DNA of 64,000 bases, taken from Sphingomonas sp. dw_22 (GTDB lineage: Bacteria > Pseudomonadota > Alphaproteobacteria > Sphingomonadales > Sphingomonadaceae). The notes beneath the pieces were generated by a model. That model did not search any database and was not told the DNA's origin. It saw nothing but the letters and a program-made list of their open reading frames with translations. The translations under genes were made by a program, and so were the position numbers. The stretch is taken from assembly GCF_018449795.1 (NCBI RefSeq), contig NZ_JAAVVE010000003.1, positions 62,001 through 126,000 of the forward strand, read 5' to 3'. This document shows positions 12,926-42,761 of the stretch, in pieces; the stretch's first letter is position 1, and every line of letters begins with the position of its first letter.

Positions 12926-13588
12926 TCAGGCCGCCCGGCGCTGGTGCCATTGATGGACGTCGATCGCTTCCTGGATCGTGTCGAAGAAGGTCAGCTTGCC
13001 GTCGTTCAGCACGGCTCCTCGTTCGCAGAAGCTCAACAGCGTCTGCGGGTCGTGCGATACCATCACCAGCGTTCCCTCGCGCCGCCGCTCGGTCAGCGCG
13101 GCGTGACAGCGATCACGAAAACGCTCGTCGCCCGCGCCGGTGACCTCGTCGACGAGATAGCAGTCGAAATCGATCGCCAGACTGATCCCGAACGCGAGGC
13201 GGGCCTGCATTCCCGACGAGTAGGTCTTGACCGGCTGGCGGAAATAGGGGCCGAGCTGCGCGAAATCCTCAACGAAAGCCAGCATTGGCTCGACCTTGCG
13301 CCGATAGACCCGAGCGATGAATCGGACATTGTCGGCGCCTGTCAGGCTCGCCTGGAAGGCGCTCGAATAGCCGATCGGCCAAGACACCGTCATGCGGCGA
13401 TCGATCCGTCCCGCAGTCGGCATTTCCACGCCGGCAAGCAGCCGCAGAAGCGTCGATTTACCGGCGCCATTCGCGCCACAAATTCCGATCGCCTCGCCAG
13501 GTCTTACGCTGAAGCTCGCCTTGCGCAGTACCGTCTTGCGGAGATTTCGCGCGTGATACGTCATCGAGACATTGTTGAAACGGATCAT
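12926..13588 (-). CDS. kpsT: Capsule polysaccharide ABC exporter, ATP-binding subunit
   Basis: A 220-residue ATPase of the KpsT/Wzt group. Walker A is GANGAGKST (about residues 38-46), the signature is YSSGMQARLAFG (about 122-133) and Walker B is CYLVDEVTGAGD. The shortness and the IGYSSAFQASLTGADNVRFIARVY segment after the Q-loop are typical of polysaccharide exporters. It should energise KpsM (gene at 32311-33126) in moving finished chains across the inner membrane. The gene is alone on the minus strand and about 19 kb from kpsM, which is unusual because the two are normally adjacent. It is divergent from the glycosyltransferase at 13696 with 107 nt between them. Confidence 0.92.
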   Translation of the reverse strand: MIRFNNVSMTYHARNLRKTVLRKASFSVRPGEAIGICGANGAGKSTLLRLLAGVEMPTAGRIDRRMTVSWPIGYSSAFQASLTGADNVRFIARVYRRKVEPMLAFVEDFAQLGPYFRQPVKTYSSGMQARLAFGISLAIDFDCYLVDEVTGAGDERFRDRCHAALTERRREGTLVMVSHDPQTLLSFCERGAVLNDGKLTFFDTIQEAIDVHQWHQRRAA

Positions 13589-14958: not shown

Positions 14959-16352
14959 CGACGCACGGCCAGGCCCTCATTCGCGTCGGAGTCGACGGGT
15001 TCAATCTCGGCATGCGTGAGGGAACCGGGGTCGCGACCTATGCGCGCTCGCTCGCCGAGGCCTGCCATGAACTCGGCCGGCCCGTCGACCTCGTCTACGG
15101 GCTCAATGTCCCGGCATCCGCGCCGCCGGAGCAGCGCGAAACCCTCTTCTTCAGTGCGCTCGCCCAGACGCAGGCCCCGACCGGCCAGGCGCCGCGCGCT
15201 TCAACCGTTCGGAAGATCCGTCGCCTCCTTCTTCGGCCGGGCGTGCGCGAACTCGTCGAGGTTCCGGCCTCAGGTCGGGTCATCCGGAAGGGATTCGCGC
15301 AGCGGGTTCCCGCCTATGACCGGCTGTTCACCTTCAATGCTCTTTTCACACTCGGCGAGCGCTATTTTCGCCGGTTCGGTCGCCTCATGCCGGTGAGCGT
15401 GCCGCAGCCGCCGGAGATCATGCATTGGACATACCCGGTCCCGGTGAGGATGGTCGGCAGCAGAAACGTCTACACCATCCACGATCTCGTGCCGCTGCGG
15501 CTCCCTTTTCTGAGCCTCGAGGACAAGCGCTACCACGAGCGCCTCCTCCACGCCTGCATTGCGCACGCGGCGCATGTGCTCACGGTCTCCGAGCATTCCC
15601 GCTCGGACATCCTGAACTTCCTTCCCATCGCACCCGATCACGTTACCAACACCTACCAGGCGCTTCCGCCCCACCGCGGGGCGGAGCGATCCAACGAGGA
15701 ACTCGCTCGCAACCTTCGGGCGATCTTCAATCTCGAGGCGGGCGGCTACTTCCTCTATTTCGGTGCAATCGAACCGAAGAAGAATGTCGGCAGACTGATC
15801 GAAGGATATCTCTCCTCAGCCCTCGACACGCCGCTCGTAATCGCCGGCCCCGACGCCTGGGGCGCCGCGGAGGAACTCCAGCTCCTCGACGGGGACGGGG
15901 CGGCGCGCGCTCGCCAGGCCGGCCGGCTGCGGCGCGTCGGCTACGTTCCGACCGAACACCTGGAGCAACTTGTCGCCGGCGCCCGCGCCGTGATCTTTCC
16001 ATCGCTGTACGAGGGATTCGGCCTGCCCGCCCTCGAAGCCATGTCCGCCGGCGCCCCGCTGATCTACGGCTCCGAGGGCGCACTGCCGGAGATCGTCGGC
16101 GCAGCCGGCGTCATGATCGATCCCTATGACGTCGATGCGATCGGCCGCGCGCTCCTGGCGCTCGATCAAGACGAGCGATTGCGGTCCGACCTCAAGTCCG
16201 CAGGGGGGCTGCGCGCACTCGATTTCACCATGCCGCAATATCGCGCGCGCATTGACGCAATCCACAAGCAGCTCATCCACGACGCCCCGCGACCTGGCCG
16301 GGCGAGCATCTTTCCGAAGACTCCAAATACCCTCAGCGGAGAACTTACCTGA
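14955..16352 (+). CDS. GT4-type glycosyltransferase
   Basis: A 465-residue GT-B glycosyltransferase. Landmarks are REGTGVATYARSLAEACHEL near the start, MHWTYPVPVRMVGSRNVYTI and HDLVPLRLPF, then YFLYFGAIEPKKNVGRLIEG and FPSLYEGFGLPALEAM in the donor domain. An insertion of about 60 residues after residue 45, compared with the preceding paralogue, suggests a different acceptor. ATG 14955 overlaps the upstream stop (ATGA); a longer open frame to 14832 is rejected. Its own stop overlaps the kpsD start by one base. Tandem GT4 genes of this type usually build the capsule repeat unit (inference). Confidence 0.88.
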   Translation: MTTHGQALIRVGVDGFNLGMREGTGVATYARSLAEACHELGRPVDLVYGLNVPASAPPEQRETLFFSALAQTQAPTGQAPRASTVRKIRRLLLRPGVRELVEVPASGRVIRKGFAQRVPAYDRLFTFNALFTLGERYFRRFGRLMPVSVPQPPEIMHWTYPVPVRMVGSRNVYTIHDLVPLRLPFLSLEDKRYHERLLHACIAHAAHVLTVSEHSRSDILNFLPIAPDHVTNTYQALPPHRGAERSNEELARNLRAIFNLEAGGYFLYFGAIEPKKNVGRLIEGYLSSALDTPLVIAGPDAWGAAEELQLLDGDGAARARQAGRLRRVGYVPTEHLEQLVAGARAVIFPSLYEGFGLPALEAMSAGAPLIYGSEGALPEIVGAAGVMIDPYDVDAIGRALLALDQDERLRSDLKSAGGLRALDFTMPQYRARIDAIHKQLIHDAPRPGRASIFPKTPNTLSGELT

Positions 16353-17497
16353 TGCCGCGCACCCATCGCGCCAACGTCAAACCGGTAGCCACCTTGCTCG
16401 CTTCGTCGCTGGCTCTGGCGGGCTGCGCGACTTTGCCCACCAGCGGACCTACCTCGGCCGAGATCTCACGGGCACAGAGGAGCCTCGACAACTTCGATCT
16501 CGTCGATGTCGACGCGGCTGCGCTCGAAAGAATCTCCGCCTCGCCATCGACGGGGAAGGGGCGTCTTGCGCCGCTGGCTGTCGATGGGTTTGTCGACACG
16601 ATCGGTCCGGGTGACGTGCTGCAGATTGCGATCTACGAGGTAGGTGCACCGCTCTTCGGCTCGCGTGCCGGCGCGACGGCTGAGCTGTCGACGGGTTCGA
16701 GCAGCGGCGAGACCTTGCCACCGGTGACCGTGGCGCGCGACGGGCACATCACGATCCCTTGGGCCAGCCACGTCGTCGCGGCAGGCAAGACACCCGATGA
16801 GCTCGCGGAAGAGCTGAGCGCCGCCTACCGGCGCAATTCGGAGAATCCGCAGGTGATGGTCGCCATCCGCGAAAATGTGAACAACACCATCATCGTACAG
16901 GGCGACGTGAAAAAGCCCGGACGGCTTCCGCTGACGCTCGCGCGCGAGCGCCTGCTCGACGCGATCGCCATCTCCGGCGGATCCGCCAACCCGAGCCTCG
17001 ACAGCGTCGTCAAGATCAACCGGGCAGAACGTGCCGCGGAAGAGCCGCTGAGCGCGATCGAACCCGGATCGGAAGACGATCTTCGTCTTCTGCCCCAGGA
17101 CCGTATCTCGGTGACATTCCGCCCGCGCACCTTCACCGTGCTCGGCGCGACCGGCAAGGTCTCGGAGATTCCCTTCCAGAGCCCGCGCGTCTCCCTGATC
17201 GAGGCGATCGGCCGGAGCGGCGGGCCCAGCGACGAGCGCGCCGATCCCGCTGCGATCTTCGTCTTCCGCTATGAACCGGCCGAATATGACGGGTCGCCCG
17301 CTGCCGGTTCGCGTCCGGTCGCCTACAAGCTCAACATGCGCCAGCCAGAGAGCTACTTTCTCGCCCAGCGCTTCGAGATGCGGCCACGCGACGTCATCTA
17401 TATCGCCAACGCCGGCGCCAATATCCCGACCAAGGCGATCCAGGTGCTGAGCCTCTTCTTCTCGCCGTTCTACACGGCGAAGGTGCTGAGCCAGTGA
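16352..17497 (+). CDS. kpsD: Outer-membrane capsule export lipoprotein (KpsD/Wza-like)
   Basis: A 381-residue lipoprotein: signal peptide ending in the lipobox LALAGC (Cys about residue 24). The polysaccharide-export domain follows (VDTIGPGDVLQIAIYEVG, about residues 80-97) with DGHITIPWASHVVAAGKT, then SLBB-like beta-grasp domains including IIVQGDVKKPGRLPL and TFTVLGATGKVSEIPF. It ends with an amphipathic segment that may cross the outer membrane. It forms the outer-membrane channel that joins KpsE/KpsM. Length is nearer to Wza/CtrA/BexD (about 380) than to E. coli KpsD (about 560). The symbol is by role. It overlaps the preceding gene by one base. Confidence 0.9.
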   Translation: MPRTHRANVKPVATLLASSLALAGCATLPTSGPTSAEISRAQRSLDNFDLVDVDAAALERISASPSTGKGRLAPLAVDGFVDTIGPGDVLQIAIYEVGAPLFGSRAGATAELSTGSSSGETLPPVTVARDGHITIPWASHVVAAGKTPDELAEELSAAYRRNSENPQVMVAIRENVNNTIIVQGDVKKPGRLPLTLARERLLDAIAISGGSANPSLDSVVKINRAERAAEEPLSAIEPGSEDDLRLLPQDRISVTFRPRTFTVLGATGKVSEIPFQSPRVSLIEAIGRSGGPSDERADPAAIFVFRYEPAEYDGSPAAGSRPVAYKLNMRQPESYFLAQRFEMRPRDVIYIANAGANIPTKAIQVLSLFFSPFYTAKVLSQ

Positions 17498-17610
17498 AGC
17501 TGATTGGCCTTTCGACCGTCTTCGGGCGTGACACGTCCCCTCGCGAACCCCGACCTGAGGTCAGCGGACTTCCTCCGCATCGACCTCCAGCACAAGAAGG
17601 AGAACTGCGG

Positions 17611-18507
17611 ATGAACGCGCAGATCGACCCGAGAGCAAGACAGCCCGAGCTGCCGATTCCCGATGGCCTTGGCAGGGATGAGATACTCGCCGCTCTCACC
17701 AGCTTTTCCATCGACGGCGCCGGTCCGGGTGAACTCGACGCCTATGCGCGGGAGGATTGCGACCGTTTCCTCCACACGCTCTCGCTGGTTCCGCCTGGCC
17801 CGCTCAAGATTCTCGAAGTGGGTGCCAACCCATATTTCCTGACTTATCTCTTGAAGAAATTCCGGCCCGAGGCGCAGCTCACGCTGGTCAACTATTTCGG
17901 CGGGGAAGCTGACAAGAAGAGACAATCGCTCGCCGTGTCAGCCACGGACGGAGCCGTGGAAAGATATGATCTCGAATATCACAATGTGAACGTCGAGGAG
18001 GCCGATCTGCCCTTCGAGGAAAGCAGCTTCGACCTGGTGCTCTATTGCGAAGTTATCGAGCACATGCTGAACGACCCGGTAGCGACGCTCAGGCGCGTCA
18101 AGCATGTGCTTAGGCAAGATGGCTGGCTGGTGCTGACGACGCCCAACGTGGCCCGGCTGGAGAACGTCGCGCGCCTCGTAGCGGGCAGCAACATCTATGA
18201 TCCCTATTCCGGCTATGGGCCTTATGGCCGGCACAACCGGGAATATAATCGCCACGAGCTGCACCACCTCCTGCGCTACTGCGGTTTCAGCGAGGAGCTG
18301 TTCTTCACCGCGGACGTGCATCCCAACCGGGCGGGCGATTTCGTCAGCGTCGAACGGCTCGAGCCGCTGTTGCGCGATCGCGCGGCCGATCTGGGTCAGT
18401 ACCTCTTCACCCGGCAGCGGAACACCGGGCCGATGGCTCGCCAGCTGCCAGGCTGGCTCTACCGCAGCTATCCGGCCGAGGCGCTCGACATGACGGAGAC
18501 GCTTTAG
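17611..18507 (+). CDS. SAM-dependent methyltransferase
   Basis: A 298-residue class I methyltransferase. Motif I is KILEVGANPYFLTYLLKKF, motif II VNYFGG, and the post-motif region has SSFDLVLYCEVIEHMLNDP and GWLVLTTPNVARLENVARL, as in Methyltransf_11/23 proteins that act on sugars or lipid-linked glycans. The frame is open back to GTG 17494, where it would overlap kpsD, but ATG 17611 has a strong ribosome site (AGAAGGAGAAC) 7-10 nt upstream, so I chose it. In the capsule operon it probably methylates a sugar of the polymer, perhaps as a chain-end cap (inference). Confidence 0.82.
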   Translation: MNAQIDPRARQPELPIPDGLGRDEILAALTSFSIDGAGPGELDAYAREDCDRFLHTLSLVPPGPLKILEVGANPYFLTYLLKKFRPEAQLTLVNYFGGEADKKRQSLAVSATDGAVERYDLEYHNVNVEEADLPFEESSFDLVLYCEVIEHMLNDPVATLRRVKHVLRQDGWLVLTTPNVARLENVARLVAGSNIYDPYSGYGPYGRHNREYNRHELHHLLRYCGFSEELFFTADVHPNRAGDFVSVERLEPLLRDRAADLGQYLFTRQRNTGPMARQLPGWLYRSYPAEALDMTETL

Positions 18508-18557
18508 GTGAAGGTCGCCATTCCACCTTTTCTGATTTCCGCTGGAGAACCTCCGAG

Positions 18558-20291
18558 ATGAGCACCCAGGATGGGATTGCCGAGCATGCCGAGGCCGACC
18601 AGCGGCCGGGAAAGCGGCGGCCGACGATATCCGACGTGGCGCGCGCATATCGGTTGTTTCTGGGACGCGAGCTCGAGAGCGCCTCGATGGCGGGGTTCCA
18701 CATCGGCAACTCGCCGGATCTGTGGGATCTCGTGGAAACCGTCTCGACCTGCGCGGAGGCCAGTCGTCAGCGCGTTGCGGAGGCAGCGGCGGCAATGCGG
18801 ACGTTTCAAGGTCAGCTATCGCTGGAACTCGACGCATCTCCCGCGCAGCTTGAGGCGCTTCGCCATGCCACGATGGACGCCTGGAAGGCTAAGGGTCTCG
18901 GCCGATATGATGAGTGGCTCCGTCAAGGCGTGGACCATTTTGCGAAGCGTAGCGGAAGATGGAACCTCGAGAAGACGCTGGAACGCGGCAAGATCGAGGC
19001 GACCGATCTTCTCGGAACATTAAGCCGCCTTGGCTGGGCCGGTCCTGTCGACGCGACGATCACCGTTGTTGGTGCCCAGGCATTTCGCATGCGCGAGGCC
19101 GCGCCGCATCTCGTCGGCGTGGAACTGGTCGAATCCGATCTCGCGCTCGCGGAGCGTGCGCAAGCTCCCGGGAGCGGAACGAGCCCCCGGGCGCTCTCCA
19201 TCACGGACTATGACGGAGATCCGCCGGAGACCGACATCTTCTATTCGGTATCCGCCCTGCAATATGCGCCGCCGCCGCTCTTGCTCGACATGCTTCGGTG
19301 CTTCCTTGCCCGCGTACGGCCCGGCGGCGTCGCGGCCTTTCAGGTGCCGTGCTACCTTCACGATTATCAATTCGGCATCGACGCCTATCTCTCGGGCGAG
19401 GGCCGAGACACAGCCGGCGAACTGCATTGCGTGCCGCAATCCCGAATACTCGCACTGCTTTCGCAAGAAGGCTTCCAGCTCCTCGAGGTCAGTCCCGACG
19501 AGCGGGTCGGGAAGTTCGGGCTCTCCTACTTCTTCGTCGCGGAAAAGACGGTTTCCGCCGCCGCGCTCCGTTCGCCGGAGCATGCTGCAACAATCACCGG
19601 AAATGAGGATATGATCGTGGATCAGACGATGGCTAAAAGCGAGCTCGGACAGGCGGTGCAGGCGCGCGAGTGGTTCCACCGTATCGACTTGGGGGATGGG
19701 CTGATAACCCCGGGCGGCGACGATTCGCCCTATAAGCTGACCGCACTCGGGCTCCCGAAGGATCTCAGCGGGAAGTCCGTCCTGGACGTCGGCGCCTGGG
19801 ACGGCTTCTTCTCGTTCGAATGCGAGCGACGCGGCGGCGCGCAAGTGGTGGCGTCGGATTCCTATTGCTGGAACGGGCAGGGCGTTTTCGACGGCGGTGG
19901 ATTTCGTCTCGCCCACGCGGCACTGGAATCGCGCGTCGTCCCCCTGAACGCGAGCGTCGAGCAACTCGACCCCGCCGTGCACGGGACGTTCGACTATGTG
20001 CTGTTCCTCGGCGTCCTCTATCACGCGAGAGATCCGCTCGGTTATCTGGCGAAGGTGCGCGCGCTCTGCCGAGGTACGGCCATCATCGAAACGGTGGTCG
20101 ACGCACTCGACGTCGATCGACCGGCGCTCATTTTTTATCCGGGCGCGACGCTGAACCGCGATGGGTCGAATTTCTTCGGCCCCAATGAGGCCGCCGTGAT
20201 CGCGATGTGCAAGGAAGTAGGCTTCTCGCGCGTCGAGGTCGCCAACAGGTTCTACTACGACAACAGAATGGTCTTCCACGCCCACGTCTGA
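18558..20291 (+). CDS. Two-domain methyltransferase, second domain CmoB-like
   Basis: A 577-residue protein. Residues about 18-60 resemble the DUF4214 module (SDVARAYRLFLGRELES). Residues about 95-335 look like a class I methyltransferase whose motif I is degraded (ITVVGAQAF instead of an acidic GxGxG), ending in RVRPGGVAAFQVPCYLHDY. Residues about 350-577 form a second, intact methyltransferase with WFHRIDLGDGLITPGG, then SVLDVGAWDGFFSFECERRG and LFLGVLYHARDPLGYL, the pattern of the CmoB/DUF1698 family. ATG 18558 lies 50 nt after the upstream gene with GGAGAACCTCCGAG before it. Its place among capsule genes suggests glycan methylation rather than tRNA modification (inference). Confidence 0.8.
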   Translation: MSTQDGIAEHAEADQRPGKRRPTISDVARAYRLFLGRELESASMAGFHIGNSPDLWDLVETVSTCAEASRQRVAEAAAAMRTFQGQLSLELDASPAQLEALRHATMDAWKAKGLGRYDEWLRQGVDHFAKRSGRWNLEKTLERGKIEATDLLGTLSRLGWAGPVDATITVVGAQAFRMREAAPHLVGVELVESDLALAERAQAPGSGTSPRALSITDYDGDPPETDIFYSVSALQYAPPPLLLDMLRCFLARVRPGGVAAFQVPCYLHDYQFGIDAYLSGEGRDTAGELHCVPQSRILALLSQEGFQLLEVSPDERVGKFGLSYFFVAEKTVSAAALRSPEHAATITGNEDMIVDQTMAKSELGQAVQAREWFHRIDLGDGLITPGGDDSPYKLTALGLPKDLSGKSVLDVGAWDGFFSFECERRGGAQVVASDSYCWNGQGVFDGGGFRLAHAALESRVVPLNASVEQLDPAVHGTFDYVLFLGVLYHARDPLGYLAKVRALCRGTAIIETVVDALDVDRPALIFYPGATLNRDGSNFFGPNEAAVIAMCKEVGFSRVEVANRFYYDNRMVFHAHV

Positions 20292-20379
20292 CCCGGCATT
20301 GTCCCGGAATTTCTCATGGACCATCCGGCGCCCGCGAACACCTGCGCCGGCCAGCAGCGACAAGGCAAGGTCGAAGACG

Positions 20380-22209
20380 ATGGACGTATCCGTTCCAACA
20401 TTCCCGGACTTGGCCAAGGGCGTGCGGCCCGGCCTCAATCTTCTGCTCCTTGGCAATTGCCAGCTCGAGAGTATCGCCCAGGCTGCGCCGTCGCTCGGGC
20501 ATACGGCACACCATCAGCTTATGGAATCGTTACGACATTCCGCGATTCCGGCGGTGGCAACCGGGAACTTCGATGCTGCGGTTGTGTCCCTGACCCTGCG
20601 CCACATCGTCAGCGACGCCACCGGCCTGTTCTTCGGAGCCGCAGATATGGCGCTGGCGCGGCTGCAGGACGAGAGCCAGGCCGAGGAACTCCTCGAGCGT
20701 TGTTCGGCGCTGATTGACCGCAGGCTCGACGCGCTCCAGCCGGCTCTGGCCGGCCTGCCATCATTCGTCGCCTCCTTCCTCGAGCCCAGCTTCAACTACT
20801 TCGGGACGCTGATCGACCCCTATGGGCCGACTGCGCCGCGCGCGGTCATGCGCGAGCTCAACCGCCGCTTTGCCGCGCTGGTTCGCAACCGGCCCAATTT
20901 CTATTTCCTGGACATCAATGATCTCGCCAACGCGGCCGGTCGGATGAATTTCCACGACGATGCTGTTGCCGGCTCGCTGCATGGTTCAGTCATCAGCGAA
21001 GCAATGGCCGAATATGACCGCGACAGGTTTGAAGTGCCGGCGCCCAATTCCGACTTCTTCGACTATCCCGCTTATTCAATGGCGTTCGCCGAGCTCTTCT
21101 GGGGCAGCATGGCCACTGCGCTTGCCGTCATCCGGCAGGACGATCCCGTCAAGCTCATCGTCGTCGATCTCGATGATACCTTGTGGCGCGGTGTCGCCGC
21201 AGACTCCGACTTGCCGCATTGGGCGCGAACGGAAGGGTGGCCGATCGGCTTCGTGGAAGCGCTGCTCTTCTTCAAACGCCGCGGCGGGCTGCTGGCGATC
21301 TGCAGCAAGAATGACAGGGAAAGCACTTTGGAGCGGCTGCGCGCGATCTGGCATGGCGCCCTGGTCGAGGAGGATTTCTCGGCGATCCGTATCAACTGGC
21401 AATCCAAGGCGGAAAATATCGCCGAAATCATCGCGGAAACCAATATTCTCGCGGGCAATACCCTCTTCATCGACGATAATCCCCGGGAACTGGACGAGGT
21501 TGTCGCGCGCCTCCCCGATATCCGCGTACTCGGCGGCCGCCCGCACGACTGGCGCCGAACCATCCTTTGCGCCCCGCAGACGCAAGTGCACACGATCACT
21601 GCTGAATCGAGCCGCAGGACCGAGCTTGTCCGCGCCCGCGCATCGCGCGAAGCGGCGAAATTGGAGCCGACGGGGAGCCGCGAGGAGTGGCTGGCGTCGC
21701 TTTCGCTTTCCGAGGACATCGTCCGCGTCGAGGATCCATTGTCGCCCGAAGCGGTGCGCGCCTTCGAGCTCATCAACAAGACCAACCAGTTCAACACGAC
21801 CGGCAAGCGCTGGACCTTGCCGGACTTCCATGCCTTCCTGGGCGGAACGGGCATTTGCCTGGTGGCGAGCCTCAAGGACAGGAATGTCGACAACGGCATT
21901 ATCGGCGTGAGCCTCATCCAGGACGGCGAGATCGTCCAAACGTTGCTTTCATGCCGGGTTTTCGGGCTGGGCGCGGAGATCGTCCTTGGACGGCAGGCTA
22001 CCGCGGTCGCCCTGCGGCAGGCTCCGTTCGCGATCGGCCGCATCGTTGATACGGGCAGGAACTTCACCTGCCATGCCTATTTCGAGGCGCTGGGCTACAG
22101 GCGCGAGGGGCCCGTCTTTCGGGCACACCAGCCCTGCGCGATGCCGCCCTGGATCACGACAACCGGATTCGACGTTGCCGCAGACAGCGACCGTCTGCTG
22201 CGCGCTTGA
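20380..22209 (+). CDS. FkbH-like HAD-IIIC protein (glyceryl-ACP type), divergent
   Basis: A 609-residue FkbH-like protein. The N-terminal region (about 1-250) starts LNLLLLGNCQLESIAQ, an SGNH-like fold. The HAD-IIIC domain follows with motif I VVDLDDTLWRG (catalytic Asp near 263 and 265), motif II AICSKND and motif IV FIDDNPRE. The C-terminal part is acetyltransferase-like and carries FELINKTNQFN (about residue 459). FkbH enzymes take 1,3-bisphosphoglycerate, dephosphorylate it and load glyceryl on an acyl carrier protein (family knowledge, e.g. OzmB). ATG 20380 is chosen over TTG 20299. Motif I is followed by an unusual ADSDLPHWARTEG instead of GVIGDDG, so its substrate may differ from its paralogue at 22931. 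Confidence 0.82.
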   Translation: MDVSVPTFPDLAKGVRPGLNLLLLGNCQLESIAQAAPSLGHTAHHQLMESLRHSAIPAVATGNFDAAVVSLTLRHIVSDATGLFFGAADMALARLQDESQAEELLERCSALIDRRLDALQPALAGLPSFVASFLEPSFNYFGTLIDPYGPTAPRAVMRELNRRFAALVRNRPNFYFLDINDLANAAGRMNFHDDAVAGSLHGSVISEAMAEYDRDRFEVPAPNSDFFDYPAYSMAFAELFWGSMATALAVIRQDDPVKLIVVDLDDTLWRGVAADSDLPHWARTEGWPIGFVEALLFFKRRGGLLAICSKNDRESTLERLRAIWHGALVEEDFSAIRINWQSKAENIAEIIAETNILAGNTLFIDDNPRELDEVVARLPDIRVLGGRPHDWRRTILCAPQTQVHTITAESSRRTELVRARASREAAKLEPTGSREEWLASLSLSEDIVRVEDPLSPEAVRAFELINKTNQFNTTGKRWTLPDFHAFLGGTGICLVASLKDRNVDNGIIGVSLIQDGEIVQTLLSCRVFGLGAEIVLGRQATAVALRQAPFAIGRIVDTGRNFTCHAYFEALGYRREGPVFRAHQPCAMPPWITTTGFDVAADSDRLLRA

Positions 22210-22239
22210 GCGCGGGCGGCGAGTGCAGGGGGGAATGAT

Positions 22240-22929
22240 ATGATCCGGAATATCGAGGACGACATCAGGACAGGGTGCCTGGCACGCACTGGCATGGAGC
22301 CGGCGGAGCTTTCGATGCAGTTCGCCAGCTTTGGCAACGACTGCGAATTTGGCTTCGTCCAGCGTCACTTCGGTGCCGAGCCGATCAGCATCTTCCGATG
22401 GGCCAACCCCAAGGCCGACATGATCCTGCACGGCCTCAGGACCAATTTCGCGGACCTTGGCGAAGACCTCGCCGTCGAACTCGACAGGCAGCAGCCGCGA
22501 CGGGAATGGATCATCGTCGATCGCTTCTACGCGCTCCGGCAACACACCTTCATTTTCGAAGGCGATCCGAAAGAAGAGAATATCGAGGTCAATATCCGCA
22601 GGCACCTCGCCTTTCTGCGGCGGCAGCTCCAGGAGGATATTGCGCTTGGCGAAAAGATCTTCGTCATAAAGTCGGCGCCCAACGTGCCGGAGCAGACCGC
22701 CCGGACCATCGCCCTGGCGCTGCGCGAACTGGGACCCGGCTGGCTGCTTTGGGTGGTCGACGAGCCGGGTGGACCCGCCGTCGAGCGCGTCCAGGACGGC
22801 CTGCTCAAAGCCAGGGTCAACGGCCTCCTTTGGGAAGGACATCCGCGCTGGTTCGAGATGCAATGCGCGTGGGCGCAGTGGCTGGAAGCGATGATGCAAG
22901 CCTGGCAGCTCGTTAATCAGGACCGGTAG
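22240..22929 (+). CDS. Papain-like cysteine peptidase family protein (DUF1796-like)
   Basis: A 229-residue protein. The N-terminal block FASFGNDCEFGFVQRHFGAEP (about residues 28-48) with a Cys directly before EFG resembles the putative papain-like peptidase family DUF1796, proteins often encoded beside glycosyltransferases. A central HTFIFEGDPKEENIEVNIRR and a C-terminal LWEGHPRWFEMQCAWAQW follow. No signal peptide. The Cys could be catalytic, making an acyl-enzyme that would suit a role in moving a glyceryl group from ACP (inference). Only one nucleotide separates its stop from the next start, and it sits between the two FkbH-like genes, so it very probably works with them. Confidence 0.65.
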   Translation: MIRNIEDDIRTGCLARTGMEPAELSMQFASFGNDCEFGFVQRHFGAEPISIFRWANPKADMILHGLRTNFADLGEDLAVELDRQQPRREWIIVDRFYALRQHTFIFEGDPKEENIEVNIRRHLAFLRRQLQEDIALGEKIFVIKSAPNVPEQTARTIALALRELGPGWLLWVVDEPGGPAVERVQDGLLKARVNGLLWEGHPRWFEMQCAWAQWLEAMMQAWQLVNQDR

Positions 22930-22930
22930 G

Positions 22931-24817
22931 ATGAGCGGATTGCATTGGCTGCCCGACGATCCATCGTGGCGCCCGCGGCTGAAAGCCTTGCGGGAATCCG
23001 CAGCCTCGCCGCAGGCATGGTCCGAAGCGGTCGCGCTCGCCAATCTGCGGATGGATGCCATGCAGACCAACGCGCTCGACGCCACCGTGCGCGCGCTGTT
23101 CGGCGCCGCGCTCCCGGCGGGGCTGGCCGCCAAGCCGATCAGGCTGGCGCTGCTCGGCACATGCACCATGACCCATCTGCATGGCGCGATCCGGGTCGCC
23201 GGGCTGCGGCGCGGCACATGGATCGACATCTACGAGAATGACTATGGCCAGTATCTGCAGGAACTCGCCGATCCCGCCTCCGCCCTCCACGCGTTCCGGC
23301 CGGACACCGTCCTGCTCGCGCTCGACGCGCACCATCTTTGCCTCGGCCTGTCCACGGCCCAGGATCTGGAGGCGCATCTGCGCGAGCGGACTGCCCATAT
23401 CGCCGAATGCTGGCGCCTCCTCAGGCAGAGCTTTCGTTGCCCGGTGATCCACCAGACGCCGCTGCCGGTGCATCCGCGCCTGATCGGCCTCAACGAGCAT
23501 CGCCACCCGGCCTCGGCCGCGCATTTCATCGACGCATTGAACCGCGATCTGCGCCGCCTCGCCGAAGACACCGGCGTCGATCTCCTGGCGCTCGACGGCC
23601 GCGCTGCGCGCGACGGTCTCGCGGCCTGGTTCGATCCTGACCTGTGGTATCGCGCGAAACAGGAGGTTTCGCCGGCGGCCGCCCCGATGTTCGGCGATCT
23701 CCTGGGCCGCCTGCTGGCCGCCCAGCAGGGCCGCTCGTTCAAATGCCTCGTGCTCGATCTGGACAACACCATCTGGGGTGGCGTGATCGGAGACGATGGA
23801 ATGGCAGGGATCGTTCTTGGCCAGGGCAGCCCGCTCGGCGAAGCCTATTCGGCATTCCAGGGCTATGTCCGCGATCTGGTCCGACGCGGCGTCCTTCTCG
23901 CCGTCTGCTCCAAGAACGACGAGGCCACCGCGCTCGAGCCGTTCGATGCCCATCCGGACATGACGTTGCGGCGCGCCGACATCGCCAGCTTCGTCGCCAA
24001 CTGGACCGACAAACCCGCCAATCTCAAGGCGATCGCGACCGACCTCAACATCGGGCTCGACAGCCTGGTGTTCGTCGACGACAATCCCGTCGAGCGCGCG
24101 CTGGTGCGCCAGGAACTGCCGATGGTCGCCGTTCCCGAGACCAGTGATGAGCCGATCGCTTCCATCCGGGCGCTCGAGGACGGCGGCTATTTCGAGAGTA
24201 TAGCGGTCACCGAGGACGATCGCGCGCGCACCGCGCAGTATCAGGACAATCGGGGCCGCGAAGCGGTGAAGGCCTCCGCCACCGATCTCGATAGCTATCT
24301 TCTAAGCCTGGACATGGAGCTAACCGTCAAGCCGTTCGACACGATCGGATTGCGGCGCACGGTCCAGCTCATCAACAAGACGAACCAGTTCAATCTCACC
24401 ACCCGGCGCTATGCCGAGGAAGAGATCCGGGCGGTTATGGCCGACCCGGGCGCCATAGGGCTCCAGCTGCGCCTGACCGATCGGTTCGGCGACAATGGCA
24501 CGATCGCCGTCGTGATCGGCGAGCTTCAGGAGGATGGCGATGTCCTGATCGACAGCTGGCTGATGTCCTGCCGTGTCCTCGGCCGCCAGGTTGAATCGGC
24601 CACGCTGAACCTGATCGCGGCGCGCGCCCTGAAACTCGGCGGGCGGCGGCTCATCGGCGAATATCTGCCGACCGCGAGGAACGGCATGGTCAAGGATCAT
24701 TACGCTCGCCTGGGCTTCACGCTCATCGAGACCCGGGACGATGGTGCAAGCCGCTGGGTCCTCGATCTTGCCGGCTTCACGCCGGCGAAGAGTTTCCTGA
24801 CGGTGACCGAAGCCTGA
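22931..24817 (+). CDS. FkbH-like HAD-IIIC protein (glyceryl-ACP type), canonical
   Basis: A 628-residue FkbH-like protein with all canonical blocks. The N-terminal SGNH-like domain includes LALLGTCTMTHL. HAD-IIIC motif I is LVLDLDNTIWGGVIGDDG (Asp near 275), then VLLAVCSKNDEATAL and LVFVDDNPVERALVRQ. The C-terminal acyltransferase-like domain carries VQLINKTNQFNLTTRRY (about residue 477) and RFGDNGTIAVVIG. It should form glyceryl-S-ACP from 1,3-bisphosphoglycerate with the acyl carrier protein encoded 23 nt downstream (24841). Start ATG 22931 is one base after the upstream stop. Such loading modules are known from polyketide pathways; here the context is capsule synthesis. Confidence 0.88.
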   Translation: MSGLHWLPDDPSWRPRLKALRESAASPQAWSEAVALANLRMDAMQTNALDATVRALFGAALPAGLAAKPIRLALLGTCTMTHLHGAIRVAGLRRGTWIDIYENDYGQYLQELADPASALHAFRPDTVLLALDAHHLCLGLSTAQDLEAHLRERTAHIAECWRLLRQSFRCPVIHQTPLPVHPRLIGLNEHRHPASAAHFIDALNRDLRRLAEDTGVDLLALDGRAARDGLAAWFDPDLWYRAKQEVSPAAAPMFGDLLGRLLAAQQGRSFKCLVLDLDNTIWGGVIGDDGMAGIVLGQGSPLGEAYSAFQGYVRDLVRRGVLLAVCSKNDEATALEPFDAHPDMTLRRADIASFVANWTDKPANLKAIATDLNIGLDSLVFVDDNPVERALVRQELPMVAVPETSDEPIASIRALEDGGYFESIAVTEDDRARTAQYQDNRGREAVKASATDLDSYLLSLDMELTVKPFDTIGLRRTVQLINKTNQFNLTTRRYAEEEIRAVMADPGAIGLQLRLTDRFGDNGTIAVVIGELQEDGDVLIDSWLMSCRVLGRQVESATLNLIAARALKLGGRRLIGEYLPTARNGMVKDHYARLGFTLIETRDDGASRWVLDLAGFTPAKSFLTVTEA

Positions 24818-24840
24818 GCCCATTCCGCCGAAAGAAGAGC

Positions 24841-25101
24841 ATGATGACCGAATCCGAGATTTACCCGATCCTCGCCGAGATCTTCAGCGACGCCTTCCTG
24901 CACGAGGTTCCGCTCGCGCCCGAACTGACCGCGGACGATGTCGATGGCTGGGACAGCTTCAAACACATCGAAATCGTCATCGCGGTCGAGCAGCGATTCG
25001 GTGTTCGTTTCAGGACACGCGAGATCGACGGCCTGCATTCGGTCGGCGATCTCGTCGCCTTGATCGGGGCAAGGCGGGACGGCCAAAGCGCGATCGCCTG
25101 A
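24841..25101 (+). CDS. Acyl carrier protein
   Basis: An 86-residue acyl carrier protein. The 4'-phosphopantetheine site is the Ser of DGWDSFKHIEIVIAVEQRFG (Ser39 if the first ATG is used), preceded by an acidic helix and followed by the usual helix II and GDLVALIGAR. The variant DSF rather than DSL is common in non-fatty-acid ACPs. It should carry the glyceryl or another short acyl group made by the neighbouring FkbH-like proteins. Two ATG codons in a row (24841, 24844) follow AAGAAGAG. It is the last gene of the plus-strand capsule operon. Confidence 0.9.
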   Translation: MMTESEIYPILAEIFSDAFLHEVPLAPELTADDVDGWDSFKHIEIVIAVEQRFGVRFRTREIDGLHSVGDLVALIGARRDGQSAIA

Positions 25102-26570: not shown

Positions 26571-27284
26571 TCATCCCTTCCTGCCGATCAGGATCACGCC
26601 ATGATGGCCAGAATGGTTGGTGTACTGCGCGGTCAAGCGGTGGATCCCCGCCCGATTCAGGATGATCATGACCTGGCCGAGGTCGTAATCATACATGGTC
26701 ATCCCGCCGGATGGCGGCGTCGAGATCAGTGGACGATAGTCCTCGCCGTTCCAGCGCACCACCTCGGTCCCATCGTCCTGGGGGCGGCACGCGCCGACGT
26801 CCCGCCCCGTCGTGATGTGGAGCGTGATTGCGCCGCCGCTCCTGAGCTTGCCCACCAGCTCCGAAATAATCCGCGCGCCGCGGCTCGGCGGAATATGCTG
26901 GAAGACAATGAGCGAGTTGATCCAGTCAAGTTCGACCACGGGAAGCTGGTCGGTGTAGGTCACATTCGCTGGCGCCTGCTGCCGCGCGATCTCGAGCATC
27001 GCGGGAGCGACGTCGATACCATAGACCGACTCTGCCATCGTCGCCATCACCCTGGTGAGCCGGCCGACGCCGCAGCCGAAGTCCAGGGCCACGCTGGGCT
27101 TGAAGTCCCCATAGTGGGCCTTGAGCAGGTCGACCTGCCATTGCACGTCCTGACGTCCGCTCGCCCAGAAGCGCTCCAGCGCCTCATCGGTTAAGTTGCC
27201 CCGCAGATAGGCGTGATCCGTTATGACCCCAAAATAGGGCTCGCTGTTCGCAATCTCCGCCCAGTCGGAATCCGTGTCCCTCAT
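26571..27284 (-). CDS. SAM-dependent methyltransferase
   Basis: A 237-residue class I methyltransferase. Motif I is VALDFGCGVGRLTRVMA (about residues 62-78), then YGIDVAPAMLEIAR, and LDWINSLIVFQHIPPSRG in the motif IV-V region with GGAITLHITTG afterwards. ATG 27284 has AGAAGAAC just upstream; the open frame continues to 27563 inside the next gene and is not used. It is the last gene of the minus-strand capsule operon and probably methylates a sugar of the polymer or its end (inference). A degenerate copy of its 3' part lies at 25355-25440. Confidence 0.85.
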   Translation of the reverse strand: MRDTDSDWAEIANSEPYFGVITDHAYLRGNLTDEALERFWASGRQDVQWQVDLLKAHYGDFKPSVALDFGCGVGRLTRVMATMAESVYGIDVAPAMLEIARQQAPANVTYTDQLPVVELDWINSLIVFQHIPPSRGARIISELVGKLRSGGAITLHITTGRDVGACRPQDDGTEVVRWNGEDYRPLISTPPSGGMTMYDYDLGQVMIILNRAGIHRLTAQYTNHSGHHGVILIGRKG

Positions 27285-27360
27285 TGTTCTTCTGCCTTTG
27301 AAAACTTGGCGCTGCTTTGGAAGGGCGACGCGATGAGAAGGGAGGCGCGCGCGGCGGACA

Positions 27361-28443
27361 TCAGGCCGACCAGGCGTAAAAGTCGATCCTGTCGGTCTCG
27401 AGCCTATCCGGCAGCGCGGCCAGGGCCCCGACGTCGCTTCCAAGATCGATCGCGCCTTTTTCGGGAGAAATCGCGGTGAAGCGGCAATATCCTGCCTGTG
27501 ACAGGAGGCGCAGATAGTCCGCGGGGTCGACGCCCGAATATTCCCGGAGCAAGTCCGGCGCATATTCGGCGATGAGATGCGGCCGCCATCGGGTCAGGAT
27601 GTCCCTCGCACCCGCCAGCGCCCGATAGTCGAAGCCATCCAGTGCGATCACGATGAAATCGACTCGCTGATCGGTCGGAATGATCGAATCGAGGGTTCGG
27701 GCATAGACGATCGGCGCATCTCCGTTCGTGAGGTCATCGAAGCTGGCATCGCGGGCCGAAGCGACCCCGTCGCTCGTTACCAGCGCGATAAAGCCGTCGC
27801 CGTCCGCTGCCGCGAACGGCAGGACATCGACGGTGTCGAGCGCATGAGCCGTGACGTTGGCCAGGAGCGCGCGCATCTTTTCGGGGTGTGGCTCGAGCGC
27901 GACCACCCGCCCGATCGGCCCAACCTTGCGTGCCGCGTGGACCGCGAATGCACCAGCGCCGGCTCCGATATCGACGACGTACATGCCCTGCTTGAGGACG
28001 CTGGCGATCGCCCCGGCCAAGTGCGGTTTGTGCCGCCCGGTCTCCCGCACGGTGCGCTCGACGCTCGTTTGCGGCGCGGGCAAGTAGAGGTCGAGGCCGT
28101 TGACCTGCGTTCTGGTCGGCCCGTCCGGTTGCTGCACCGGTTGCCGATATCGGGTGAGGTGCTCCTGGGAAAAGAGAAAATGCTTAACGAGATTGTGGAC
28201 GCTGATGCCGTCCCGGACGCATTCGAGATGATGCGGCGCGCCGATCGGATCGGGAATGCGATTGAGCAGAAGGCGATAGCAGTTCCAGAGATCGGCGAGC
28301 GTCGCGGGCAAGTCCGCGTTGATCTCGTTGCTATCGGCTTCATTCGCCCGCCACATGGCTTCCAGCTCGACCATCCTGGCATTGTCGTTGGCGATGATCT
28401 CCGAGACCGCCTCGCGCCAGATCTCCATTGGAAATTCTGACAT
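27361..28443 (-). CDS. FkbM-family methyltransferase
   Basis: A 360-residue protein with an N-terminal helical region of about 120 residues and a C-terminal FkbM methyltransferase domain. Motifs are GMYVVDIGAGAGAFAVHAAR (about 165-184), VVALEPHPEKMRALLANV, and the late DFIVIALDGFDYRALAGAR with HLIAEYAPDLL. FkbM enzymes O-methylate sugars or polyketides; in capsule and LPS loci they are common. ATG 28443 (MSEFP) follows GGAGTCTAGG; ATG 28458 and GTG 28503 are in-frame alternatives. It lies 93 nt after the TPR-GT4 gene and 76 nt before the next methyltransferase start. Confidence 0.85.
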   Translation of the reverse strand: MSEFPMEIWREAVSEIIANDNARMVELEAMWRANEADSNEINADLPATLADLWNCYRLLLNRIPDPIGAPHHLECVRDGISVHNLVKHFLFSQEHLTRYRQPVQQPDGPTRTQVNGLDLYLPAPQTSVERTVRETGRHKPHLAGAIASVLKQGMYVVDIGAGAGAFAVHAARKVGPIGRVVALEPHPEKMRALLANVTAHALDTVDVLPFAAADGDGFIALVTSDGVASARDASFDDLTNGDAPIVYARTLDSIIPTDQRVDFIVIALDGFDYRALAGARDILTRWRPHLIAEYAPDLLREYSGVDPADYLRLLSQAGYCRFTAISPEKGAIDLGSDVGALAALPDRLETDRIDFYAWSA

Positions 28444-28536
28444 CGTCCTAGACTCCATTTTCCCGGCCGGGCCGACGAGCGGACAAGCGAGGTCCAGCTT
28501 CACCCGGGCAGTGCCTCAATTTGCGATGATGAGCCT

Positions 28537-31014
28537 TCACGATGACACGGCTGCGATGGCCGGTTCGCCGGCACGCTCCCGGTTGAACGCAAGATTGTCG
28601 AGGTTCGAAAGGGCCACCGCCTCGAGGAAGGACGAACGCGCCCCTGAATCGTTCGCTCGGCAAAGGTAGAAGCCCACCACGCCGACCGAAACCACTCGGG
28701 GGTCCAGCCCCTCGGTGACCGTGCGCAGATCGACCGTCGCGGTCCCTTCCACAAGGAGGCGCAAGACGCGGTCGGCAGGAACAGTATCGAGCTCGAACGA
28801 TGTCCACTTGAACGCGCCGCGGGGAAGCACACCGCCTTGCGATTGGGCCCCGGGTAGATTGGCAGTCCACGGGCAATCCGCGGTAGGGAGCCCGTGGAGC
28901 TGGACATAAAGGCGAATGCCTTCATTCAGATCGTCTGGTAGCCCGATCTCCAGCGTTCCGCCCTGCGCCTTCGTCCAGCATCCCCAGTCGTCTGGACCCC
29001 ACCAGCCTCCACCGGCGCGAAAGATCTCCCCCGACCGCATGCCGGGCCAGATCCGTGTCGCGAAATTGCGAACGATGGGGTGATAGGCGCCGAGCGTCGC
29101 GACGGGGACGCGATAGGCTTGGTCCCCCGCGACCTGGGTGTCTTCCGCCCAGAGCCGCATCGACGCGGATAGCTGCGTCGCGATCTCGTCCCAGGCTCGG
29201 GGCGAGAAATCCTCCGCGATCTTGGCTTCCCGCTCTGCCCTGATGGCCGGTTCGAAGATGAGCTGCTCGAGTGCGGCGGTCATGCGCGGCGTCGAGCCGG
29301 CCTCGAAATAATGCGCGAACACGCCGCCCGCCTCCGGCAGGGAGGAGGCGTCCGAGACGAGCGGCACCTTTCCGTAGCAAAGCGATTCGGTGACCGGCAG
29401 GCCCCAGCCCTCGTAGTTGCTCGGATAGAGCGTAAAGAGACAGCTCCGGTAGAGCAGGTCCAGTTCCGCGTCCGACAGTCCGGAGAGCATGACGACCCGC
29501 TCGCGAAGCCCGTCATGCGCCGCGAGCCGCGCATAGACGGCATCGTTGAGCCATCCCTTGTTGCCGACGCACACCAGCTTCGGCACGCGCCGCGCGCCAT
29601 GCTCGCGCAGCAGACTGATCCAGGCATCGAATGCCCCGATATGGTTCTTGCGGGATTCAACCGTGGAGATGAACAGCACGAAATCCGATCGGCCGATTCC
29701 CCATTTCGCAAGCTCGGTACGCCCAAGCGGCGTGCTGACCGGTTTCCGAAAATCGGCATCGAGCCGGACCACGACGACCTTCTCTTCCGCGACCTCATGG
29801 CCGAGGGTCGCCGCCACCTTGAGCAGGTCGCGCTTGGTCGCTTCGGAGTTCACGAAGAAATAGTCGGCGTGCTCGAAGGCGCCCATTGCCCAGCTGATGA
29901 AGTCGCGGGTCAGCTCCTTCGTGCAGTGCTCGCTTGCCATCACCGGGATCACGTCGTGGACGAAGGGAACATAGTGGATGCCGAACTTGGCCTTCGCCTG
30001 CCGGACGTACAGGAAATAGTTCTGGAGCCACCATGACGTGCCCAGGTTGACGAGGAAGGCGCCGCGCGGGAAGGCGAGGGGCTCGGACATTGCCATCGTC
30101 AGCCGCAGTTTCGTGAGCGCGGACACCCATTCCGGCGCGTTCAGCTCGCCGCTCGCCAGACTCAGCCGGCACAGCAGCAGGAACAGTGCGGGCGCGATCT
30201 CGACCCACTCGTCGCGATGGTCGAGAAAAGCGCAGATCCGCAGCGGCTGATGACCGTTACGCAGGGCGCTGCGGATCACTTCGATCTGTACCCGCTGGAT
30301 ACCCGTGGGCAGCCGAGCACCGTTGAAATATGAAATCAGGTCGGAAACGTCGAACAGGATCGCAGGGCCGCTGCCGATACCGCCGGTCTCATTGCTCTGC
30401 CCGGCGTCGGGATGGAGCTTCTCCAGAAGCGCTTCGGTGGTCTCGAGGAGTTCGAGCTGATCGCCCGTACCCTCGCGTCGAAGCGCCGTTGCCAGGCTGT
30501 CGAGGGCAGAACGCGCCCGCGTCGTCGCGCTCGAAACGGGGTCTTGCTCGCCCAAAGCGGCGTCGGCTCCAAAATTCGTGATTGCCATGATGTCCTCGGG
30601 CGTGATTTCGATGTTTCGCGCCATCAGCATGTGAAGCTCTGCCAGGGCGTCTCCATTGCTCGGGTTCGCCCGCACCGCCGCGATATAACTCCGCGCGGCA
30701 CTCCCGATCTGTCCCGTCTCCTTGTAAAGGTGCCCGAGATGCAGGTACGGATCACTGTCCGGCTTCATTCGCAAAGCCTCGCGATACGCATCCTCCGCGG
30801 TGCGGTAATCGCCAATCTTACGCAGCATATGGCCATACTGAATCCAGACGTGCGCGAGCGACGGATCTCGCCCGAGCGCTTCACGAAAGAGCGAGACCGC
30901 AGCCGCATGGTCGCCGCGACCGCGCGCATCGTTCGCCGCCCTGAGGATCGTATGAACCTTGCCGGAGACCGGAACCCCGGCGGATTTGCGATATTTGAGC
31001 TTGTCGATGAACAT
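28537..31014 (-). CDS. TPR-GT4 glycosyltransferase, multidomain
   Basis: An 825-residue protein. Residues about 20-130 form tetratricopeptide repeats (AAVSLFREALGRDPSLAHVW, AEDAYREALRMKPDSDPYLH). Residues about 220-640 are a GT-B glycosyltransferase of family 4 type with YFNGARLPTGIQRVQIEV and HYVPFVHDVIPVMAS, then FVLFISTVESRKNHIGAFDA and TLYPSNYEGWGLPVTESL. Residues about 660-825 form a beta-rich extension with VQLHGLPTADCPW that I cannot name; it may bind carbohydrate. Large proteins of this kind polymerise or extend capsule and O-antigen chains. Start ATG 31014 lies 10 nt after the kpsE stop. Confidence 0.85.
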   Translation of the reverse strand: MFIDKLKYRKSAGVPVSGKVHTILRAANDARGRGDHAAAVSLFREALGRDPSLAHVWIQYGHMLRKIGDYRTAEDAYREALRMKPDSDPYLHLGHLYKETGQIGSAARSYIAAVRANPSNGDALAELHMLMARNIEITPEDIMAITNFGADAALGEQDPVSSATTRARSALDSLATALRREGTGDQLELLETTEALLEKLHPDAGQSNETGGIGSGPAILFDVSDLISYFNGARLPTGIQRVQIEVIRSALRNGHQPLRICAFLDHRDEWVEIAPALFLLLCRLSLASGELNAPEWVSALTKLRLTMAMSEPLAFPRGAFLVNLGTSWWLQNYFLYVRQAKAKFGIHYVPFVHDVIPVMASEHCTKELTRDFISWAMGAFEHADYFFVNSEATKRDLLKVAATLGHEVAEEKVVVVRLDADFRKPVSTPLGRTELAKWGIGRSDFVLFISTVESRKNHIGAFDAWISLLREHGARRVPKLVCVGNKGWLNDAVYARLAAHDGLRERVVMLSGLSDAELDLLYRSCLFTLYPSNYEGWGLPVTESLCYGKVPLVSDASSLPEAGGVFAHYFEAGSTPRMTAALEQLIFEPAIRAEREAKIAEDFSPRAWDEIATQLSASMRLWAEDTQVAGDQAYRVPVATLGAYHPIVRNFATRIWPGMRSGEIFRAGGGWWGPDDWGCWTKAQGGTLEIGLPDDLNEGIRLYVQLHGLPTADCPWTANLPGAQSQGGVLPRGAFKWTSFELDTVPADRVLRLLVEGTATVDLRTVTEGLDPRVVSVGVVGFYLCRANDSGARSSFLEAVALSNLDNLAFNRERAGEPAIAAVSS

Positions 31015-32305: not shown

Positions 32306-32310
32306 GGCGA

Positions 32311-42700: not shown

Positions 42701-42761
42701 CGTCGTCCTCCTCAATGAAGGACTCTAGCTTAAACTGGCGGAGTTTCAGGGGAGCACGTCA

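Follow-up and report, generated by a model that had tools for sequence, protein, structure and literature searches.

An FkbH/acyl carrier protein module with the cysteine protein P2, a candidate acyltransferase, in a capsule locus of Sphingomonas sp. dw_22

What does an FkbH protein paired with an acyl carrier protein (ACP), a combination described in the cited part of PMC7489565 as the source of glyceryl-ACP, do in a locus for capsule assembly? The question is raised by a stretch of 64,000 nucleotides from Sphingomonas sp. dw_22 (contig NZ_JAAVVE010000003.1; hereafter the window), in which four consecutive genes encode the FkbH protein FkbH1, a cysteine protein that we call P2, a second FkbH protein (FkbH2), and an ACP. 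The initial annotation took these genes for a glyceryl-ACP module within a capsule operon, saw no polyketide synthase (PKS), and named as a refuting case a PKS or nonribosomal peptide synthetase (NRPS) just outside the window that uses this ACP. Searches of the whole source genome (4.37 Mb, 96 contigs, completeness 99.99%) uphold the view of a dedicated FkbH/ACP supply and did not bring up the refuting case: PF00109 gave one full-length match (C9, a FabF-like frame of 423 amino acids, aa) and two of ~40 residues, the NRPS condensation domain PF00668 gave none, and use of the ACP by a PKS or NRPS was therefore rejected. We take the module to be a variant of the known FkbH/ACP acyl supply, set here in a capsule locus together with P2. 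We propose that FkbH2 would charge the ACP with glyceryl and that P2 would pass the acyl group, perhaps O-methylated, to the capsule glycan; we regard this proposal as evenly poised between right and wrong.

The P2-FkbH-ACP triad and its loaders

A single-sequence search of genome contigs with P2 gave no match; relatives were recovered only with a 7-member profile, which detected 154 in GTDB genomes when the motif [SG][LIF]G[DN][ND]CE[FL]G was required, many of the kept loci being named Acetobacteraceae or Methylobacterium. Counts for the P2 family refer to the best 79 of these 154 relatives. An FkbH gene lies in 24 of the 79 loci, always at most 1.5 kb from the P2 domain (domain-match gaps of 99–1,345 bp), versus ~0.09 neighbors expected by chance, as estimated from an FkbH density of 52 matches in ~245 Mb across 48 genomes (taken from 50 of the 79 loci, with L069 left out and two loci in one genome). 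The adjacency of P2 and FkbH is therefore not due to chance. FkbH is present in 40 of the 48 searched genomes with P2 relatives, versus 16 of the 196 genomes searched from the window's order.

All 24 P2-FkbH loci also contain an ACP, and each of these triads has a single FkbH. Fourteen further P2 loci, 13 of them with an ACP, have no FkbH and instead encode an AMP-binding ligase, a partner that was recognized post hoc, after viewing the neighbors (by Pfam for L069, L094 and L110, and by clustering for the rest); L070 alone carries both loaders. Overall, an ACP was found in 37 of the 38 P2 loci with a loader versus 2 of the 41 without, as counted with an ACP profile built from the ACPs of these same loci, and across loci that are related by descent and hence not independent. 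P2, ACP and AMP-binding ligase, which would constitute an alternative loading route, occur together in L069, L071, L075, L081, L082, L094, L101, L110, L116 and L129 (ten of the 13). The window-like order of P2, FkbH and ACP on one strand recurs in six of the 24 triads (L070, L085, L104, L117, L122 and L127); in L057 the order is the same, and 2.7 kb separates that P2 copy from FkbH. Judged by gene neighborhood, the P2-FkbH-ACP triad is a recurrent unit with an exchangeable loader. The initial annotation had suggested a genome search for the order FkbH-DUF1796-FkbH-ACP beside kps genes; the P2-FkbH-ACP part of this order does recur, but with one FkbH per triad and rarely near kps genes.

FkbH2 and the ACP are members of known families. 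Both window FkbHs exceed the NCBIfam FkbH (TIGR01686) cut-off of 146.65 bits (scores in Table 1), and FkbH2 also exceeds that of the FkbH_N domain PF21211 (27 bits), against which the N-terminus of FkbH1 scores 16.6 bits. The DLDDT/DLDNT and LINKTNQFN motifs noted earlier are present in the FkbH pair. In an alignment of 16 FkbHs, both window copies included, the HAD residues DxDxT, K342, D364 and D365 and the SCR cysteine C524 of the C-terminal region are invariant, and the CSKN cysteine near HAD motif II varies. The only PDB sequence matched by FkbH1 or FkbH2 is 3slr (BF1531, named uncharacterized; E 5.7e-63 for FkbH2), a search of viral contigs with FkbH2 gave one distant match, and the AlphaFold2 (AF2) model of FkbH1 was discarded (predicted local distance difference test score, pLDDT, 62; predicted template modeling score, pTM, 0.39). 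The ACP passes the Pfam PP-binding (PF00550) cut-off of 20.8 bits and is 57% identical to the triad ACPs of L057, L070 and L083; its DSF serine, also noted in the initial annotation, is Ser39, invariant in 18 aligned ACPs. We predict that FkbH2 charges the ACP with glyceryl derived from 1,3-bisphosphoglycerate.

By its place among FkbH sequences, FkbH2 belongs with P2 and the ACP, and FkbH1 comes from another clade. In an FkbH tree of 52 rows, built by a quick method with support only from the Shimodaira-Hasegawa-like approximate likelihood-ratio test (SH-aLRT) and with long branches flagged, window FkbH1 among them, FkbH2 falls inside a 23-row group (SH-aLRT 100) that comprises 21 of the 24 triad FkbHs, the L039 FkbH from the window's genus, and FkbH2 itself. 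FkbH2 is 62% identical to the FkbH of L104, from a Methylocystaceae genome. FkbH1 forms a group with three Rhizobium/Azospirillum FkbHs encoded on plasmids (SH-aLRT 100), which four further FkbHs join at SH-aLRT 96. No ACP was found near FkbH in the seven loci of the FkbH1 clade, which represent five strains or genomes (L010 and L011 share one strain, L170 and L171 one genome), L136 being just 3.2 kb long. Among the FkbH loci of the window's order, an ACP lies nearby in 11 of 18, two of the 18 being from the source genome, or possibly in 12, as a 94-aa open reading frame (ORF) beside the L042 FkbH looks ACP-like by eye; six of the seven loci without an ACP form a group next to that of FkbH1 (support for the join, 89). 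FkbH1 relatives are located with polysaccharide export genes in L011 and L012, a weak DUF1796 match lying ~6 kb away in L011, and adjoin housekeeping-like genes in L169 and L170.

Since no ACP was found in the loci of its clade, FkbH1 probably does not serve as another loader of FkbH2's kind. The initial annotation had read two FkbHs as a sign of two steps or two donors, and joint action of FkbH1 and FkbH2, with both loading one ACP or each performing one of two steps on it, would be in keeping with their adjacency and with the intact invariant residues of both. The failure to find an ACP in the seven loci of the FkbH1 clade, the grouping of FkbH2 with the triads, and the single FkbH in each of the 24 triads argue otherwise, and we consider joint action quite improbable.

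P2 and the transferase position

Its conserved link to FkbH and ACP makes P2, to which the initial annotation assigned no role, the most informative part of the module. P2 has no Pfam match reaching cut-off (the best is SGNH, E 0.096) and no NCBIfam match at E ≤ 0.001. We compared the P2 family with DUF1796, to which the initial annotation had likened P2. Aligned by hhalign with a 5-member DUF1796 alignment, the family gave a probability of 94.7 (E 6e-8, residues 29–165), with a shared S-x-G-x-x-C motif and a co-linear profile over 136 columns; the negative control against FkbH gave 0.2, and comparison with one single DUF1796 protein gave 0.4, not significant. The Pfam DUF1796 model (PF08795), in contrast, is not among the P2 matches up to E 10 and has no match in the source genome. 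Plain membership of P2 in Pfam DUF1796 was accordingly rejected, and what stands of the likeness is remote homology between profiles. We assign P2 to an unnamed family that has DUF1796 (putatively papain-like) as a distant relative. We know of no function for DUF1796.

P2 is sparsely distributed: among 296 genomes from the window's order only one, the source genome itself, gave a match, and further searches matched 4 of 398 genomes of a phylum sample, source included and with one match (G665, E 3.9e-4) that looks like a spurious frame, and 8 of 72,556 plasmid records. Residues F28, G32, C35, E36, G38 and Q41 are invariant in P2 and 39 aligned relatives (39 of the 79), in part by construction for G32, C35, E36 and G38, since the scan demanded the motif. 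Cys35 is kept in 89 of the 90 family copies with letters at this position, and in 9 of the 10 copies lacking the search motif, the exception being a serine in L099. The AF2 model of P2 is of good quality (pLDDT 90.1); no papain-like chain appears by name among the fold matches listed, and the P2 profile, run against PDB sequences, hit ribosomal proteins alone, and those weakly (E 0.14 or worse).

Several other FkbH-ACP pairs have a gene for an acyltransferase, or a candidate for one, nearby: an MBOAT in L037 and L043 (and, by annotation, in L174 and L176), a WcbI-family putative acetyltransferase in L173, a hexapeptide transferase in L039 and L044, and a GNAT in L046. A methyltransferase is also found near the pair in L037, L039, L175 and L176. 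No such acyltransferase was recognized beside the pair in L041 and L175, and L049 has an MBOAT with FkbH, no ACP being found there. These occurrences do not amount to a rate, because neighbors were scanned with Pfam for six of the 11 ACP-containing loci from the window's order (L037, L039, L041, L043, L044 and L046) and partly for L038. An FkbH gene also adjoins a gene that by eye is MBOAT-like in L177, on pSymB of Sinorhizobium meliloti Rm41, a tractable species. L044 is a second FkbH locus of the source genome (C56:103400-123390) and contains FkbH, the β-ketoacyl-ACP synthase KASIII, ACP, a gene that appears SDR-like by eye, and the hexapeptide transferase; this KASIII is on a different contig from the module.

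No MBOAT was found in the source genome. Three observations make P2 a candidate ACP-dependent acyltransferase: (i) P2 occupies the slot in which other FkbH-ACP pairs have an acyltransferase, (ii) the genome is without a detected MBOAT, and (iii) P2 keeps its ACP when the loader changes. Alternatively, the acyl group could be transferred by the C-terminal domain of FkbH2, by FkbH1 or by an unrecognized domain, with P2 acting as a thioesterase, chaperone or ACP docking protein. The C-terminal region with its invariant SCR cysteine, presumably GNAT-like, is common to the 16 aligned FkbHs. P2 forms the C-terminal part of tetratricopeptide repeat (TPR) proteins in L063, L069, L070 and L104, and the L057 copy follows a WcbI domain and TPRs in the same protein; such fusions to TPRs would suit a docking role, as P2 loci without a loader would suit a function other than transfer. 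Nevertheless, several of the other FkbH-ACP pairs have a separate acyltransferase gene despite the same FkbH C-terminal region, and P2 accompanies the ACP whichever loader is used. A P2 that is not the transferase thus appears rather unlikely to us.

The capsule locus and the proposed pathway

The module lies in a Kps-type capsule locus that spans 12.9–37.4 kb of the window (Table 1). KpsC/S, KpsM/T, KpsE and KpsD-like components are all represented, with two Capsule_synth proteins, ABC parts and Poly_export above the Pfam cut-offs. The NCBIfam KpsE, KpsM and KpsS models match window proteins below their cut-offs, and the KpsC-like protein has no NCBIfam match. An ORF check reproduced the tight row of four genes described in the initial annotation, with intergenic gaps of 30, 1 and 23 bp; FkbH1 has an in-frame ATG at 20380, and its distance to the upstream gene is 88 bp from this start or 7 bp from a TTG start. 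The row ends a + strand block (13696-25101) that begins with two glycosyltransferase family 4 (GT4) genes, a KpsD/VexA-like gene and two methyltransferase genes. Because - strand kps genes flank this block on both sides, we prefer "locus" to "one operon": of the Kps capsule operon named in the initial annotation, the capsule setting stands and the single operon fits less well.

Table 1. Genes of the capsule locus, with positions in the window and supporting matches
Feature	Position	Strand	Evidence
KpsT-like ABC ATPase	12926..13588	-	PF00005 65.0 bits; polysaccharide-export ATPase models top-ranked, below cut-offs
GT4 glycosyltransferase	13696..14958	+	PF00534 94.9 bits
GT4 glycosyltransferase	14952..16352 (longest ORF from 14832, downstream start chosen)	+	PF00534 72.6 bits
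Outer-membrane polysaccharide export protein, KpsD/VexA-like	16352..17497	+	PF02563 and PF22461 above cut-off; VexA model 88.8 bits, below equivalog cut-off
Methyltransferase	17494..18507	+	PF08241 42.7 bits
Methyltransferase directly upstream of FkbH1; C-terminal S-adenosylmethionine (SAM) domain, possible second at 172-257	18558..20291	+	PF13489 49.1 bits, PF08003 42.9 bits; PF13649 best stretch 172-257; TIGR04290 68.6 bits, below cut-off
FkbH1, HAD-IIIC FkbH protein	20380..22209	+	TIGR01686 169 bits
P2, 229-aa cysteine protein	22240..22929	+	hhalign to DUF1796; family Cys35
FkbH2, canonical FkbH (FkbH_N + HAD + C-terminal domain)	22931..24817	+	TIGR01686 285 bits; PF21211 43.6 bits
ACP, predicted phosphopantetheine site Ser39 in GWDSF	24841..25101	+	PF00550 22.0 bits
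Methyltransferase	26571..27563	-	PF08241 43.0 bits
FkbM-family methyltransferase	27361..28503	-	TIGR01444 75.9 bits (cut-off 37.7); PF05050
TPR + GT4 glycosyltransferase	28537..31014	-	Pfam/NCBIfam scans
KpsE-like inner-membrane export protein	31025..32380	-	TIGR01010 185.8 bits (cut-off 437.5)
KpsM-like ABC permease	32311..33195	-	PF01061 37.7 bits; KpsM model 96.1 bits (cut-off 300)
GT4 glycosyltransferase	33123..34535	-	PF13692 59 bits
KpsS-like capsule protein	34406..35776	-	PF05159 278.9 bits; KpsS model 259.2 bits (cut-off 600)
KpsC-like capsule protein, name inferred	35644..37392	-	PF05159 151.9 bits, two stretches

Directly 3' of the ACP is a DUF433 + DUF5615/PIN-like pair, likely toxin-antitoxin (25533-26485, + strand), followed by the - strand genes from the methyltransferase pair to the KpsC-like gene. 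The island is flanked by two TPR + GT41 (OGT-like) proteins (6421-8838 and 37242-40046, both +), and transposase fragments that contain integrase core domains and are probably of the IS3 type lie near its edge (41575-42715, -). Farther out are a GspD-type secretin (3422-5491) and a tryptophan halogenase family protein (47246-48844, +; 599.7 bits). Upstream of the window, in L172 (contig positions 42100-62000), a frame that stays open for 3,373 codons or more is followed by genes that by eye resemble type II secretion genes. A promoter and terminator scan was uninformative (4 and 9 sites, versus 1.8 and 8.0 in shuffles).

In the proposed pathway, FkbH2 would take 1,3-bisphosphoglycerate, remove phosphate and load glyceryl on the phosphopantetheine of the ACP, the role described for FkbH. 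P2 would receive the acyl group of the ACP, probably at Cys35, and, still in the cytoplasm and ahead of export by Kps, join it in an ester bond to a hydroxyl of the capsule polysaccharide or of the linker. The neighboring methyltransferases may add O-methyl groups to the glyceryl unit or to the sugar, and FkbH1, from a different FkbH lineage, would have an accessory or separate role.

Several observations weigh against this pathway. Three of the 24 triad FkbHs fall outside the main triad clade. The histidine expected for a papain-like dyad varies in the P2 family, and the P2 model has no confident fold match (the best is 2g6t, Z 7.9, root-mean-square deviation 4.5, 184 aligned; Foldseek gave none at E ≤ 0.001). 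Neither loader was found in 41 of the 79 P2 loci, the closest P2 relatives L054-L056 included, and as 26 of the 41 extend for 3 kb or more to either side, cut contigs do not explain these cases. Among the 79 loci, a KpsT-like ATPase is present in five, a KpsM relative in none, and relatives of the window glycosyltransferases in one (L064). The neighbor proteins scanned (57 of the 116 listed) included two WcbI and five methyltransferase matches, with no glycosyltransferase family in the 25 rows listed of 79. The triad elsewhere is thus mostly not beside capsule genes, and the acceptor may not be the capsule.

Two further readings concern this acceptor. First, the module may be a horizontally acquired cassette parked in the capsule island, its acyl-ACP serving to modify another glycan, a protein or a small metabolite. 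The varied neighbors of the triad, the near absence of the P2 family from the window's order and the second FkbH-KASIII-ACP-hexapeptide locus of the source genome would all fit such a role. The row nevertheless belongs to the same + strand block as glycosyltransferases and an export gene and starts close to the gene upstream, and no PKS or NRPS was found to which the ACP could belong; we find this reading highly doubtful. Second, glycans exported by ABC transporters often carry terminal modifications, and the module may make a cap for one chain end or for the lipid linker, such as a methylated glyceryl terminator, rather than decorate each repeat. Four methyltransferase genes surround the module, and di-O-methylglyceric acid occurs as a substituent on a Campylobacter surface sugar, as stated in the cited part of PMC3068675. 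No terminator kinase was recognized among the window proteins scanned, and the sequence fits a chain end and a repeat equally; we take a cap to be unlikely, and transfer of the acyl group by P2 to the capsule glycan remains our preferred reading.

Relation to known systems

More broadly, P2 may found a family of soluble, Cys-dependent acyltransferases that decorate glycans from dedicated ACPs, with glyceryl supplied via FkbH and other acids via AMP-binding ligases, and DUF1796 proteins in surface-glycan loci may be relatives with the same chemistry. We offer this extension tentatively and lean somewhat against it; if true, the P2 family would parallel MBOAT/Dlt systems but dispense with the membrane enzyme. 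The triad is a defined three-protein system that offers a candidate function for a DUF1796-related family, and it hints at a reason for the recurrence of FkbH and ACP genes in loci that have no polyketide synthase. Acyl substituents of capsules and O-antigens influence how hosts and phages recognize them, and our literature searches turned up little on the making and attachment of glyceroyl-type groups. They returned no text joining FkbH or HAD-IIIC with capsule, polysaccharide or O-antigen, none on this module, no paper on DUF1796, and none treating DltB, MBOAT, acyl carrier protein and polysaccharide O-acylation together; the literature naming FkbH together with MBOAT concerned nonribosomal peptides.

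The D-alanylation system DltABCD consists of an adenylation-enzyme loader, a carrier protein and an MBOAT transferase with an SGNH partner. The module resembles it in combining a loader, a carrier protein and a putative acyltransferase, presumably for an envelope polymer; it differs in that Dlt has an adenylation loader, an MBOAT + SGNH transferase and D-alanine as its acyl group.

Glyceric acid derivatives on surface structures have been reported, in the cited parts of the following sources, as di-O-methylglyceric acid on pseudaminic acid in C. jejuni (PMC3068675, PMC3958885), D-glyceroyl on a Pragia O-antigen (PMC10609480), and N-glyceroyl pseudaminic acid in Tannerella (PMC9912281). The parts cited also place ACP genes in flagellin glycosylation islands of Enterobacteriaceae (PMC4875605), and for the suomilides they propose FkbH domains together with glycerate methylation and sulfation (PMC8609519, PMC13122637). 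The C. jejuni flagellar glycosylation locus is akin to the window in having an fkbH-domain gene, cj1302 (PMC7099621), in a surface-glycan locus with a methylglyceric product. It differs in that the glycan is on flagellin and not a Kps capsule, and that the gene linked there to the methylglyceric group is Cj1295; the cited parts make no mention of P2.

The tetronate and methoxymalonyl-ACP pathways (FkbGHIJK, Mad7/Mad8) share with the module an FkbH protein and a stand-alone ACP, according to the cited part of PMC7489565. The window set differs by its place in a capsule locus with P2, in a genome where no PKS was found. No FabH-like release enzyme was found among the window proteins scanned, and no acyl-ACP dehydrogenase, of which two are expected in the methoxymalonyl-ACP FkbGHIJK operon, among the proteins scanned at 12926-37392.

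Finally, parallels are offered by the ACP-FkbH-MBOAT cassettes of Alphaproteobacteria (L037, L043, L174 and L176), which likewise combine FkbH, ACP and an acyltransferase, with a methyltransferase in L037 and L176. There the acyltransferase is a membrane MBOAT; in the window, P2 stands in that place.

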